36,206 nucleotides of DNA from Deltaproteobacteria bacterium (GTDB lineage: Bacteria > Desulfobacterota > DSM-4660 > Desulfatiglandales > Desulfatiglandaceae): contig JAFDGR010000011.1 of assembly GCA_019309145.1 (NCBI GenBank), positions 1-36,206 on the forward strand, written 5' to 3'. The number at the start of each line of letters is the position of its first letter. Within the stretch, counting starts at the first letter, position 1. Below, piece by piece: positions 22,270 through 26,561 of the stretch. The notes under the pieces were generated by a model. It was not told where the DNA came from. It saw only the letters and a list, made by a program, of their open reading frames with translations, and ran no database searches. Position numbers and translations under genes: made by a program.

Positions 22270-22749
22270 ATGAAAAAATTGATCATTGCGGTATCGTGCC
22301 TGGTCTTCGCATTCGGTATTGCCGTCTACGCCTCGGCCTCCGATGAAATGCCGGGAGCAAATCCCCAGGCGCTCTGGAATTATATCACAAAGGTATCCCC
22401 TTATACATCCTGGGGATTCTGGCCTGACCACAAGGGGATGCTGAAAGGTCGCGCGCCACATGGTTCCTGGCACAAGGTTTATGTGAATGACAAGGCGCTG
22501 AATTCATCGCACGCGCCGGTCCAGTATGGTGCCATTGAGGTGAAAGAAAACTACAACCGATCGAAAAAGCTCAAGGTCATTACCGTCATGTACAAAGTAA
22601 AAGGGTATAATCCTGCGGCCGGGGACTGGTTCTGGGTCAAGTACCGGTTGAACGGCAAGGCCGACAAATTCGGAAAGCCCAAAGGCTGTATAAATTGCCA
22701 TGGCATCCGGGCGAATAACGACTATATCACCGTGCATGAATTCAAGTAA
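22270..22749 (+). CDS. Exported cytochrome P460-family c-type cytochrome
   Basis: A 159-residue secreted haem protein. An N-terminal Sec signal (KKLIIAVSCLVFAFGIAVYASA) is followed by the P460 fold with WNYITKVSPYTSWGFWPD, a PHG motif (63-65), IEVKENY (89-95), and GDWFWVKY (118-125). The C-terminal GCINCHG supplies the CxxCH haem attachment (Cys140, Cys143, His144). P460 proteins range from hydroxylamine-oxidising and NO-detoxifying enzymes to simple electron carriers. The ATG at 22270 is chosen because AAAGGAGAAAGGA precedes it and the signal peptide starts there. It is probably co-transcribed with the DUF4079-type membrane gene 21 bp downstream, a likely electron partner (inference). Confidence 0.88.
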   Translation: MKKLIIAVSCLVFAFGIAVYASASDEMPGANPQALWNYITKVSPYTSWGFWPDHKGMLKGRAPHGSWHKVYVNDKALNSSHAPVQYGAIEVKENYNRSKKLKVITVMYKVKGYNPAAGDWFWVKYRLNGKADKFGKPKGCINCHGIRANNDYITVHEFK

Positions 22750-22770: not shown

Positions 22771-23199
22771 ATGCTCATCATCCACCCCATCATCCAGTTT
22801 TGTGCGACGCTCCTGGCGTGTTTTGTGTTTTTTCTCGGGCTCCAGCGTTTCCGTATGCTCCATCTGAAACAGAAGACCAGGTTCAACTGGAAACAACATG
22901 TGTTGCTCGGGATAATGACGTTACTCACTTTGCTGGCCGGGATGGTGGGAGGGATGAGCATGGTCTATCTCAACTGGCACGGCTTCCTGGTCACCGGGGT
23001 CCACGGAAAAATCGCCCTGGTCATTCTTCCCATGGTCCTCTTCGGGCTCATTTCCGGGCTGTACATGAACAGCAAGAAGAAAAAGCGGAAAGCGCTTCCG
23101 TTCATTCATGGGACCGTGAACCTTTTTCTTCTTTTACTGGCCTTCTACCAGATGTACAGCGGTTGGTGGGTGTATAACGCCTTTATTTTGGGCAACTAG
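22771..23199 (+). CDS. DUF4079-type four-helix membrane protein, cytochrome-b561-like
   Basis: A 142-residue integral membrane protein with four hydrophobic segments (about 3-27, 45-65, 78-98 and 112-135) and basic cytoplasmic loops (KKKKRK). Histidines sit at the helix ends (HP at 5, WHG and VHGK near 70-79, IHGT near 113), as in b-type haem proteins of the DUF4079/b561 type. AGGGG lies before the ATG. With the P460-like cytochrome directly upstream it may pass electrons between the quinone pool and the exterior; this is inference from histidine placement and neighbourhood. Its last 4 bp overlap the end of the convergent 72-residue gene. Confidence 0.78.
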   Translation: MLIIHPIIQFCATLLACFVFFLGLQRFRMLHLKQKTRFNWKQHVLLGIMTLLTLLAGMVGGMSMVYLNWHGFLVTGVHGKIALVILPMVLFGLISGLYMNSKKKKRKALPFIHGTVNLFLLLLAFYQMYSGWWVYNAFILGN

Positions 23200-23414
23200 G
23201 AAAGATACTGCTTCAATTCGGAGACGAATTTCACCCGCTCTGACGCATCGCCCTTGATCCGCTCTTTCACCTTTTTCCAGGTTGGCGGGCAATTCTTATA
23301 TTCCACGTCCACAATGGAGTGAATCACCTTGTCAATATCTTTCTTGTTCCCCTTGTCCACGGTGATGCCTGCCTCATCCAGGATGTCTTTCATGTATCGG
23401 AAATAGCATGACAT
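23196..23414 (-). CDS. Conserved-looking small protein, 72 residues, unknown function
   Basis: A short soluble protein beginning MSCYFRYMKDILDEAG and rich in Lys, Asp and Glu, with a second cysteine in YKNCPPTW. GGGGG precedes the ATG at about nine bases. It lies 37 bp after the rhodanese-rubrerythrin fusion on the same strand, so it is very likely the last gene of that operon. I recognise no domain. The compact, well-started frame and operon position support it being real. The two cysteines could bind metal or be redox-active, but nothing proves this. Confidence 0.7.
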   Translation of the reverse strand: MSCYFRYMKDILDEAGITVDKGNKKDIDKVIHSIVDVEYKNCPPTWKKVKERIKGDASERVKFVSELKQYLS

Positions 23415-23451: not shown

Positions 23452-24285
23452 CTATGCCTTCCTGTTCATCAGCTCCCCGAGGGCCGTCAGATGGGCCTTT
23501 TCCTGCTGGGCCAGGTCATGAAACAGCTTTTTCGCATCCTGGTGCTTGATCTCTTCCGAATATCGCATATAAAGATCCATGGCCTGCGCTTCAAACATCA
23601 TGGCAATTGAAAACACATCCTCTAAGGCATGTTCCTTCCCCATGATCCTTTCCAGGTACTCCTCAGTGCTGAGCCCTCCTTCCAGGGCCCCGCGAACAAT
23701 CTTAGACTCGAATGTGGGCCGATCAACATGGGTTCCAGTTATCTTCCTGAAAAGCTCAAAGAGCCGACCTTTGTGTTTTTCCTCAATCCCTGCCAGTTTC
23801 GTAAGTAATTGTGCTGCTTCCGCGTCGCCCGTTTTTCCCGACGCCTCGGTATAAAACCCGCCCAGCCTCTCCTCCATGCCAGAGGCAAAAAGAATGATCG
23901 CTTCAGGAGTTTCCATGTCCTTCACAAATTCCAGCCCCATCTCCGGTGGACCCGCTACTTTAACTCCCTGCCATGCCCTGATCCCGCCCTGCAGGTTATA
24001 CACCTCTTGGAAGCCCTCCCCTTCCAGGAGCTTCGCAGCGACCCGGCTGCGGCCACCGACGGCTCAGTAAGCGATAACGGGTCTTAATGGATCCAGTTCC
24101 CCGAGGCGATCCGAAAGTTGAGGCAGGGGGATCAGTTTCGCCCCAGGGATCCGTTCCTTCTCATATTCTCTCTCCTGGCGGACGTCCAGCAGGGTATAGG
24201 AACCTTCCTGATGCTCCTCCATGAAGGCCCTTGCTTCGTCCGCGGTCATGTTGCGGACCGGTGAAAACAGCGACTTGATTTTCAT
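23452..24285 (-). CDS. Selenocysteine-containing rhodanese-rubrerythrin fusion protein
   Basis: One 277-residue protein read through an in-frame TGA at 24064-24066 (codon 74). Residues 1-108 form a rhodanese domain (LLDVRQEREYEKERIPGAKLI form, then VIAY-Sec-AVGGRSR, then YNLQGGIRAW). The TGA sits exactly where the catalytic cysteine of the usual AYCAVGGRS loop belongs, so Sec74 would be the persulfide- or selenide-carrying nucleophile. Residues about 118-277 form a ferritin-like rubrerythrin domain with EEKH (168-171), FEAQ (Glu232) and QEKAH (Glu262, His265) as likely diiron ligands; no rubredoxin domain follows. A 6-bp hairpin after the TGA fits a bacterial SECIS. The ATG at 24285 has AAGGGGG upstream. 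Ordinary gene calling would give two fragments (24064-24285 and 23452-24003). Role: thiol/peroxide stress or sulfur transfer (inference). Confidence 0.88.
24034..24066 (-). promoter_or_regulatory. Candidate bacterial SECIS element with its UGA codon
   Basis: On the minus strand the TGA (24066-24064) is followed after 12 nt by a perfect 6-bp stem CGCAGC (24051-24046) / GCTGCG (24039-24034) closing a 6-nt loop CGGGTC. The loop begins 18 nt after the UGA and its second base is G. This fits the published bacterial SECIS model as I recall it: loop 16-37 nt from UGA, with a G among the first two loop bases. It would recruit SelB with selenocysteyl-tRNA. Confidence 0.75.
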
Positions 24286-24661: not shown

Positions 24662-25162
24662 ATGTCTGAAAAGAACGAAAAGAATCTCGCCTACGCCTTC
24701 GCTGCCGAATCAAAGGCCGCCATCCGGAACGATGCGTTCGCGAAGAAGGCTGACAAAGACGGTTACGCGCAGATCGCTCGTCTTTTCAGGGCTGTCTCCG
24801 ATGCCGAGTCCGTCCATGCACGCAGGTTTCTCCTCCTGATACGTGGTAAAGTGGGCACAACGGAAGAGAACCTCGATGCCGCCTTCCACAACGAGATCAG
24901 GGCTAATGTTGAAGAATATCCGAAGCTCATCAAGGACGCCACCGATGAAAACAACGAAGGTGCACTCCGGGCTTTTTCCCACGCACGAGACGTGGAGAGC
25001 AGGCATGCCGAGCTTTATAAAAAGGCCATGAATGACATGCTTGCTGATCGCCACTCCCGGTATTACGTGTGCCAGGTTTGTGGGTACATCAGCGAAGACA
25101 ACCCGCCTGAGAATTGTCCCGTGTGCGGCGCGGTGAAAGCCAAATTCAAGCTGGTTGAATAA
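24662..25162 (+). CDS. rbr: Rubrerythrin
   Basis: A 166-residue non-haem diiron peroxidase used by anaerobes to reduce hydrogen peroxide. The N-terminal ferritin-like four-helix bundle carries the iron ligands (AAESKAAI, ESVHARR, then DVESRHAELY), and the C-terminal rubredoxin domain has YVCQVCGY and ENCPVCGA for the Fe(SCys)4 site. AAAGGAGGG precedes the ATG at 24662. The gene is divergent from the selenoprotein rhodanese-rubrerythrin operon, so the two diiron proteins may share control and together form an oxygen and peroxide defence locus. Confidence 0.95.
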   Translation: MSEKNEKNLAYAFAAESKAAIRNDAFAKKADKDGYAQIARLFRAVSDAESVHARRFLLLIRGKVGTTEENLDAAFHNEIRANVEEYPKLIKDATDENNEGALRAFSHARDVESRHAELYKKAMNDMLADRHSRYYVCQVCGYISEDNPPENCPVCGAVKAKFKLVE

Positions 25163-25190: not shown

Positions 25191-26495
25191 TCAATTTTTC
25201 CGCCCTTTTTTCGGAACGAGGTACAGTGGTGCCAGGGTGTCGGGAGAAACGCCCAGGTGGCAGCCCGCCATGATGACCCAGTTGATCAGGGTCGTTCGCA
25301 CCACCCCCAGGCGCTGCCAGCGTCTGCCGGACGTGAGAACCTCGGCTTCGGCGATCCTGATACGGCCGTATGCCCGCAGAAGCCTCACCAGCAAAAAATC
25401 TTCTGCAAGAGAAACATGAGGGAACCCTCCCACCGAGTTGAACAACGCCTTTTTCATGAACAATGCCTGATCCCCGTAAGGTAACTGGAAAACACGCGAC
25501 CGCACATTCGTCATCCATTCAACCGCGCGGATAAGCGGCACCCGGCAGTCCGTTTTGAACCGGAAGGCACCGGCCGCGGTCCTTCTCGGAAGAAGGGTCT
25601 CAAAAACATGGTCCACGTAACGTGCCGGGAGAAGGGTATCTGCGTGGAGGAAAAGAAGCACTTTCCCCTTTGCTGAAGCGGCTCCCGCGTTTTGCTGCAA
25701 AGCGCGACCTTTCATTGTCGCGACAACCTTTGCTCCGGCCTCTTCGGCAACCGCTCTGGTGCGGTCCCTGCTCCCCCCATCCACCACGATAATTTCCGCG
25801 TCCTGATCCCTCGCCCCGGCAATAGTCTCCCTGATATTATTTTCTTCGTTCAGGGCAGGGATGATGACCGACAGGTACGGCCGCATTTGCACCAGCCGCG
25901 GATTCCATTCCTGCAGATCTTCAATGGTGTCCACGTCCATAAGTGGTTTCAAGAGATGATACCTCAAGCTCTTGCCCCTGACCACCTTGAGCGTTTGATC
26001 AAGCACAGTATCGTCTCCCCATGTCATCCCCTCGAATATATCCAGGGGTCGGTTCATCCCGACGAGCCAGTATCCCCCGTCCGTGCTGGGACCGAGGACC
26101 ACATCTTTTTCCCGGAGCATACGAAACGCTTCCTGCAAACGGCCCTGTGTCAACCCCGGGATATCCGTGCCCAGGAGAACCACGCGCCTGCACCCATCCT
26201 GGAAGGCCTTCTGGAATGCGTCACGCATTCGCCTGCCAAGATCCCCCTTTTCTTGTTCTGATAACAGGATCCCGCGCCCCAGCCAGTTCAGTACTTTGTC
26301 TTTGTTTCCCCCCTCAAAACAAAACGCGGATTCCCTTTCAGAACTGGCAACGAACCTTGTAACAATACGAAGGGTGGCCTCAGTAAGTTCCCGTTGCAGA
26401 TCCGCCGCCCCTGCCGGGCCGAGAAGCGGGACCAGGCGTGTCTTCACCTTGCCCGGAAACGGGTACCGCCCGAATATGATAATCCTCTGTCTCAT
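25191..26495 (-). CDS. Two-domain glycosyltransferase: DUF2064 (TIGR04282-like) fused to GT2 (TIGR04283-like)
   Basis: A 434-residue fusion. Residues 1-200 form a DUF2064/TIGR04282-type nucleotidyl/glycosyltransferase domain (IIIFGRYPFPGKVKTRL, LLGTDIPGL at 107-115, GPSTDGGYWLVGM at 135-147). Residues about 205-434 form a family-2 glycosyltransferase (SVIIPALNEE at 209-218, IIVVDGGSRDRT, LFLHADT at 281-287, then YGDQALFM). These two families are usually separate neighbouring genes, named in databases as radical-SAM/selenodomain-associated transferases 1 and 2 and also tied to arsenosugar synthesis. The ATG at 26495 is preferred over 26507 because of AGGAC at five bases. No radical SAM partner lies next to it here. 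Acceptor sugar unknown. Confidence 0.88.
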   Translation of the reverse strand: MRQRIIIFGRYPFPGKVKTRLVPLLGPAGAADLQRELTEATLRIVTRFVASSERESAFCFEGGNKDKVLNWLGRGILLSEQEKGDLGRRMRDAFQKAFQDGCRRVVLLGTDIPGLTQGRLQEAFRMLREKDVVLGPSTDGGYWLVGMNRPLDIFEGMTWGDDTVLDQTLKVVRGKSLRYHLLKPLMDVDTIEDLQEWNPRLVQMRPYLSVIIPALNEENNIRETIAGARDQDAEIIVVDGGSRDRTRAVAEEAGAKVVATMKGRALQQNAGAASAKGKVLLFLHADTLLPARYVDHVFETLLPRRTAAGAFRFKTDCRVPLIRAVEWMTNVRSRVFQLPYGDQALFMKKALFNSVGGFPHVSLAEDFLLVRLLRAYGRIRIAEAEVLTSGRRWQRLGVVRTTLINWVIMAGCHLGVSPDTLAPLYLVPKKGRKN

Positions 26496-26561
26496 GACGT
26501 CCTGCATGTTTCACGGCTCAATACCTATTGCTCCTGAGATGAACCTCAAGGCGCTGAATTG

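Follow-up and report, generated by a model that had tools for sequence, protein, structure and literature searches.

A predicted selenocysteine rhodanese joined to a ferritin-like diiron domain in a Desulfobacterota genome

Can a TGA codon in the catalytic loop of a rhodanese stand for selenocysteine (Sec), and what would be the task of such a rhodanese when its frame continues into a ferritin-like domain? These questions are raised by a locus in a window of 36,206 nucleotides (the whole stretch of DNA analysed), which belongs to a draft genome of 4.12 Mb spread over 404 contigs (completeness 94%, contamination 6%). The gene occupies positions 23452-24285 on the minus strand; its frame starts with the ATG at 24285, ends with the stop at 23454-23452 and encodes 277 residues, with a TGA at 24064-24066 (codon 74) as lone internal stop. 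Translation agrees with the original prediction in the single interruption, the length of the product and the position of the TGA, and it supplies the strand, which had been left unstated. As also anticipated there, standard annotation splits the gene, since translation with table 11 gives two ORFs of 80 and 183 aa instead of the fusion. The plus strand across 23452-24285 is broken by stops. A frame running past a TGA is by itself not unusual, because the window contains 83 joins of two stop-to-stop frames (at least 50 codons each) across one TGA.

Homologues were searched for in 395 genomes of the same phylum using the read-through protein as query, with at most six candidates scored per genome. 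Matches occurred in at least 340 of the 395, many covering the rhodanese part only. We examined 110 phylum loci (L001 and L020-L128), of which 102 passed as full length (L079, L104, L106, L107, L109, L110, L114 and L115 did not), and residue 74 is encoded in these 102 by TGA in 31, TGC in 55 and TGT in 16. The seven partial phylum loci that cover residue 74 hold only Cys or TGA there (TGA in three), L114 being without that position. A scan of named genomes gave at least 80 loci; of the 80 taken, 24 are not full length, and in the remaining 56 the codon is TGA in 11, TGC in 37 and TGT in 8. L108 (TGT), a broken copy of 85 residues, was dropped, and L185, which lies in a frame of 620 residues, contributes neither to the tree nor to the Sec/Cys counts, though it is one of the 157 loci in which neighbours were counted. 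The resulting set of 156 full-length fusions from the phylum sample and the named genomes comprises 114 with Cys, 42 with TGA (the window's own gene included) and nothing else; among the matches listed, five near-complete stop-free ones stand outside it (G171, G187, G106, G186 and a second one in G088). The proposal that the TGA replaces the active-site cysteine is thus borne out, the homologues holding only Cys or TGA at the rhodanese catalytic position, and a sequencing error is ruled out because 42 loci share the TGA at the same codon. Two family copies, L104 and L108, are apparently broken, with stops elsewhere than residue 74, and the copy in L185 is perhaps joined to a further domain.

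The closest named relatives kept, from a Desulfatiglandales MAG (L130) and a Desulfobacteraceae MAG (L131), are both 53% identical to the window's protein. Members with TGA are labelled Thermodesulfobacteriota, plus one Nitrospiraceae MAG (L157); Cys members are also found in MAGs labelled Planctomycetota, Rokubacteriota, SAR324 and Methanosarcinales, for which mis-binning is possible. Scanning viral contigs with a single protein found no relatives. A tree of the 156 rows, for which residue 74 was masked, requires no fewer than 19 Sec/Cys changes; well-supported branches force 11 of these. Such exchanges in one enzyme offer a natural experiment on what selenium buys. On one side of the midpoint root, a clade of 30 rows consists entirely of Cys forms. 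Downstream of the TGA, dN/dS is 0.12-0.23 in five of seven close Sec pairs (e.g. 0.16 against 0.72, or 0.13 against 1.03); dS is saturated in the pair L031/L035, and constraint is weak in L049/L052 (0.51 against 0.71). Upstream of it, L044/L045 (few changes) and L049/L052 give no clear constraint.

Beyond the codon itself, a perfect 6-bp hairpin with a G-containing loop had been described 12 nt downstream of the TGA, and it is there within the coding sequence at 24051-24034 of the minus strand (CGCAGC-CGGGTC-GCTGCG). A bSECIS element is a hairpin just after the UGA with a G within the first two bases of the apical loop, the loop lying 16-37 nt after the UGA; here the loop CGGGTC lies at +18. 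Folds of the single sequence over 45-64 nt do not separate the hairpin from shuffles (z -0.3 to +0.2), and this approach was rejected and replaced by a comparison with Cys homologues and by a test in which codons were redrawn synonymously at local codon use and the region +9 to +33 was folded. In the latter, the Sec rows fold more stably than their redrawn versions, with a mean z of -2.13 (n=42; p <=0.05 in 25), and the Cys rows only slightly so, with -0.38 (n=114; p <=0.05 in 8; Wilcoxon p 5e-5), the two groups being different at Mann-Whitney p 4e-16; the window's own sequence gives a borderline result (z -1.77, p 0.053). Counting both the main and a shifted register, 40 of 42 Sec rows versus 6 of 114 Cys rows have a perfect stem, and, when only rows sharing the residues RS..AA are considered, 39 of 40 versus 5 of 88 (Fisher p 4e-26, without correction for relatedness). 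The codon of Ser80 is AGC in all 42 Sec rows and in 61 of the 114 Cys rows.

Five Sec rows pair in the shifted register. Counting pairs in the main register gives 80% of cells paired with few double changes, for which reason fixed-register covariation was set aside as weak SECIS evidence, and a search for any qualifying hairpin was discarded as a discriminator, since one is found in 42/42 Sec but also in 98/114 Cys rows. Four of the six stem-bearing Cys rows (L022, L058, L142 and L159) sit in mixed Sec/Cys clades, which suggests that their stems may be leftover (fossil) SECIS elements after a change from Sec to Cys. The check for a bSECIS suggested earlier therefore has a positive outcome at the level of the family, where the SECIS-like stem goes with the TGA. 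What raises the combination of TGA and hairpin above chance is that the TGA falls on the catalytic residue, that this residue is Cys or TGA throughout the relatives and that few genes other than the TGA forms keep the stem.

The genome also encodes the means of inserting Sec. We found a tRNA-Sec with anticodon tca (73.6 bits, cut-off 47), SelB (351 and 272 bits, cut-off 242), SelA at 269 bits (cut-off 268), of which only the second half is present, at a contig end, and two SelD genes, both of which contain a single in-frame TGA, within the motif GSGUASK. All of selA, selB, selC and selD, which the original prediction had advised to look for in the same genome, are accordingly present, SelA partially. 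The two SelD loci (L210, C250:1267-2193; L211, C89:4862-5788) are different genes, and one of them may be foreign, given the contamination of about 6% in the assembly. SelA is over the cut-off in each of the 33 other phylum-sample genomes with a TGA copy, a count apart from the 11 TGA genomes of the named set; this co-occurrence lends weak support, because the background is 102/106 among the other phylum-sample genomes with the fusion or a part of it, most of them Cys genomes. The four without SelA (G078, G392, G288 and G005) are all Cys, and two of them are less than 80% complete. Taking together the UGA, the hairpin and SelA, SelB, tRNA-Sec and SelD, the gene almost certainly encodes a selenoprotein in which Sec occupies the catalytic site of the rhodanese and a four-helix domain carrying all the predicted diiron ligands comes next. 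The selenocysteine reading is supported about as securely as sequence can make it, and none of the outcomes named in advance against it (a genome without Sec machinery, a correction of the TGA, unrelated residues in homologues) appeared.

Concerning the anatomy of the protein, residues 21-106 (23968-24225, minus) match the rhodanese family PF00581 at 69.3 bits (gathering cut-off 22.2), and the domain has the catalytic loop U-x-x-G-x-R-S, in the form U-A-V-G-G-R-S. Residues 136-272 (23470-23880, minus) form a helical Rubrerythrin/ferritin-like domain (PF02915, 37.7 bits, gathering cut-off 22.8), a family matched at E 0.001 by 55/55 relatives scanned. The rubredoxin domain PF21349 has no match in the fusion, as expected from the earlier description of a ferritin-like domain without rubredoxin. 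In a 97-row alignment (without L045, L070, L103, L105 and all named rows), D34, V35, R36, E40, G48, P53, residue 74, G77, R79, G100 and G101 are invariant in the first half of the protein, and H171, E202, E232, E262 and H265 in the second. We take E138, E168xxH171, E232 and E262xxH265 to be the pattern of a ferritin-like diiron site, to which E202, in an EGG motif, could be added as a candidate extra iron ligand; all these seven candidates are present in 94/97 rows (29/30 Sec, 65/67 Cys). The window's protein has no cysteine. Proteins without any Cys beside residue 74 are 29/42 of the Sec forms and 46/114 of the Cys forms, so that Sec forms are not alone in lacking thiols; any further Cys column is filled in at most 12/97 rows.

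AlphaFold modelled the whole protein with a mean pLDDT of 89.3 and a pTM of 0.88. Because the best 50 Foldseek matches of this model are of rhodanese type, in keeping with the Pfam assignment of that domain, the C-terminal domain was modelled apart (pLDDT 89.2, pTM 0.85). Its first match is the Dps-like PA4880, and 2fzf, 1vjx and 2oh3 are among the others; the best E is 1.3e-3 and none passes 1e-3. The match of the modelled domain is general ferritin-like and not rubrerythrin-specific. The fusion resembles rubrerythrin in having a PF02915 domain with diiron ligands, but differs from it in the missing rubredoxin, in the conserved E202 of the EGG motif, and in position 235, which is A, S or G in 97/97 rows and which is presumably the site of rubrerythrin's extra helix C glutamate (ExxE). 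CoA-disulfide/persulfide reductases (PDB 3icr, 3nta, 8a56) similarly join a rhodanese to a redox domain; however, the partner there is, by the entry names, a flavoprotein and not a diiron bundle.

Rhodaneses with Sec are established predictions (PMC13188914, PMC9312934, PMC1088965, PMC2398784, PMC8318568). That they are known in deltaproteobacteria, as the original prediction stated, agrees with the one reported in a deltaproteobacterial MAG, which PMC8318568 names without its domains and which could be a member of the fusion family. For Desulfobacterium autotrophicum, 31 Sec proteins have been reported, only part of them named in the text (PMC2702500). A 2026 review (PMC13188914) tabulates predicted forms 1-5 of rhodanese-like selenoproteins, among them form 2 'UxxG' (MBM9537886.1), form 3 (NF041203) and form 5 (TsoB, NF045694). 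The protein described here is like these in bearing Sec in the rhodanese domain, and the UxxG of forms 2 and 4 corresponds to its U-A-V-G; it scores, however, 33.6 bits for NF041203, below the curated cut-off of 115, and 18.2 bits for NF045694, whose cut-off is 805. The words rubrerythrin and ferritin are absent from the main text of the review, and form 2, compared by motif only, may already be a rhodanese-diiron fusion under a one-domain name. We found no description of a Sec rhodanese fused to a diiron domain in the literature searched, mainly open-access main texts without supplements, including the consulted text of PMC1794560, PMC5029168, PMC4561486, PMC5322559 and the encapsulin paper PMC8346489. 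The rhodanese-diiron architecture is therefore undescribed in that literature, not proven new; within these bounds it would be a new domain architecture for the predicted selenoproteome. Ordinary ORF calling, by cutting the TGA members in two, hides a conserved enzyme of many lineages of the phylum and some others.

What could such an enzyme do? Our main reading, to which we assign a probability of roughly 0.4 to 0.5, is a diiron enzyme fed by sulfane sulfur that would reduce peroxide or O2, with the rhodanese as electron input. The rhodanese domain would take sulfane sulfur from persulfide, polysulfide or thiosulfate onto Sec74, and the electrons of the selenium-sulfur adduct would pass to the diiron site, where peroxide or O2 would be reduced; the rhodanese would thus stand in for the rubredoxin of classical rubrerythrin in feeding electrons to the iron. 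Selenium chemistry in general brings faster turnover and resistance to irreversible over-oxidation, which would matter here, as the protein lacks any further thiol that could resolve the catalytic residue once it is oxidised. The Cys form would have an identical task, given the repeated exchange between Sec and Cys forms. We infer this mechanism from the conserved iron ligands and some of the neighbouring genes, namely a rhodanese and metallo-beta-lactamase-type protein and an FprA-like flavodiiron protein, each a strong match in 5 of 157 loci. The putative role in peroxide or sulfur stress and the putative coupling to a diiron site first suggested for this locus fit the metal ligands and part of the gene context. 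For the explanation as a whole, Sec protein and mechanism included, we would accept an even bet. Only tentatively do we go further and suggest a novel type of redox enzyme: a Sec rhodanese would replace rubredoxin as input module of a diiron peroxidase or O2 reductase, and persulfide or polysulfide would pay directly for peroxide removal, in the window's case by a protein without cysteine. If the mechanism were true, sulfane-sulfur and peroxide chemistry would be linked in one polypeptide, in organisms living where sulfide meets oxygen.

Instead of receiving electrons, the diiron domain could itself oxidise with O2 the sulfane sulfur on Sec74 or Cys74, giving sulfite or thiosulfate, as a diiron counterpart of the rhodanese-persulfide dioxygenase (PDO) fusions; we consider this unlikely. 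The iron of persulfide dioxygenase is mononuclear. The pairing of domains is in principle as in BpPRF (PDB 5ve3), a match of the rhodanese part, and in the Rho-PDO of Desulfobulbales, where a rhodanese is likewise joined to an iron enzyme of another fold in a sulfane-sulfur context; the iron domain of PDO has, however, the metallo-beta-lactamase fold, and Sec is unmentioned in the consulted part of PMC13047784. In the same source, rhodanese-persulfide dioxygenase fusions are reported in cable bacteria and other Desulfobulbales. In our data the next gene to the fusion encodes a rhodanese and metallo-beta-lactamase-type protein in L163, L164, L166, L168 and L169, probably the same protein as that Rho-PDO. 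A neighbour of this type is strong in 5 and weak in 7 of the 157 loci, which were counted with flanks that differ in length and in many cases do not exceed 1.5 kb, and in the one member scanned all NCBIfam matches are below cut-off. A PDO-like protein next door would, however, make the fusion redundant for that reaction, and the ferritin-like diiron proteins of anaerobic organisms generally count as peroxidases or ferroxidases. In L163, L164, L166 and L168 (Desulfopila, Desulforhopalus and a Desulfobulbaceae MAG), the Cys fusion is placed directly before the rhodanese-metallo-beta-lactamase gene and two genes after an FprA-like gene.

Nor do we think it probable that the protein is a Sec/Cys peroxidase or sulfurtransferase in which the diiron domain has no further role than to bind iron or shape the oligomer, with no exchange of electrons between the domains. 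A lone Sec without a partner thiol would resemble a one-Cys peroxidase, and the ferritin-like cargo of encapsulins is considered to consist of ferroxidases (PMC8346489). However, in the 97 rows the iron ligands are conserved as well as the catalytic residue, and fusion of the two domains persists throughout 156 diverse rows; this suggests joint work, and does not prove electron exchange.

A role in selenium handling, with Sec74 holding selenium as perselenide and delivering it to SelD, appears very improbable. It has been proposed in print that a rhodanese perselenide might carry selenium (a title cited in PMC5877670), and the commonest neighbour of the fusion, at 27/157 loci (26 strong matches to the seed set), is an FAD oxidoreductase resembling the domain fused to SelD; two members scanned match TIGR03169 at 238 and 254 bits (cut-off 310). 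This neighbour accompanies 14/42 Sec versus 13/114 Cys forms (Fisher p 0.003), but the association is gone under independent pairs, and a link between it and the Sec state was rejected. Moreover, Cys forms outnumber Sec forms, the four genomes without SelA are all Cys, and no TIGR03169 match over the cut-off was found in the window's own genome, the best one having 84 bits. Finally, that the locus is no selenoprotein, being two separate genes or a pseudogene by point mutation or sequencing error, is hardly credible in spite of the two ordinary ORFs and the non-significant single-sequence fold, given that 42 full-length loci from many genomes, the Nitrospiraceae MAG among them, carry the TGA at this codon, that the stem accompanies it and that the catalytic and iron-binding residues are intact after the TGA.

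Returning to the gene context, neighbours differ between lineages and none is constant, and the neighbour counts are never the main support for the readings given above. The original prediction placed weight on a divergent pair with rubrerythrin. The neighbour is real, a rubrerythrin with rubredoxin domain (PF02915 and PF21349) at 24662-25162 on the plus strand; the weight on the pair finds no support in relatives, since a rubrerythrin-like neighbour occurs in 6/157 loci including the window (strong in 2, weak in 4), and as far as seen it was ruled out as a conserved partner. In 16 loci the fusion lies close to a gene for a membrane protein that, in the one member scanned, carries the Pfam fatty acid hydroxylase domain. 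Among the 157, an FprA-like flavodiiron neighbour is strong in 5 and weak in 1, a peroxiredoxin-like one strong in 2 and weak in 5, and a Fur-like one strong in 1 and weak in 2, names which we presume from the appearance of the sequences and not from a family scan. Sulfur and oxygen genes lie mostly beside Desulfobulbales Cys forms and not beside the window's gene, whose neighbours are cytochrome P460-like, DUF4079-like, rubrerythrin and nitroreductase, with only rubrerythrin recurring elsewhere.

Just 3' of the fusion, on the minus strand at 23196-23414, the ORF list contains an ORF of 72 aa, without Pfam or NCBIfam matches at E 0.001, which is possibly co-transcribed with the fusion gene. 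Also adjoining the selenoprotein gene, on the plus strand, are the cytochrome P460-like gene (22270-22746, 36.8 bits) and then the DUF4079-like gene (22771-23196, 32.3 bits). On the other side, at 25191-26507 of the minus strand, the window encodes a DUF2064 joined to a family 2 glycosyltransferase, and a look-alike of this protein lies directly before the fusion in L175.
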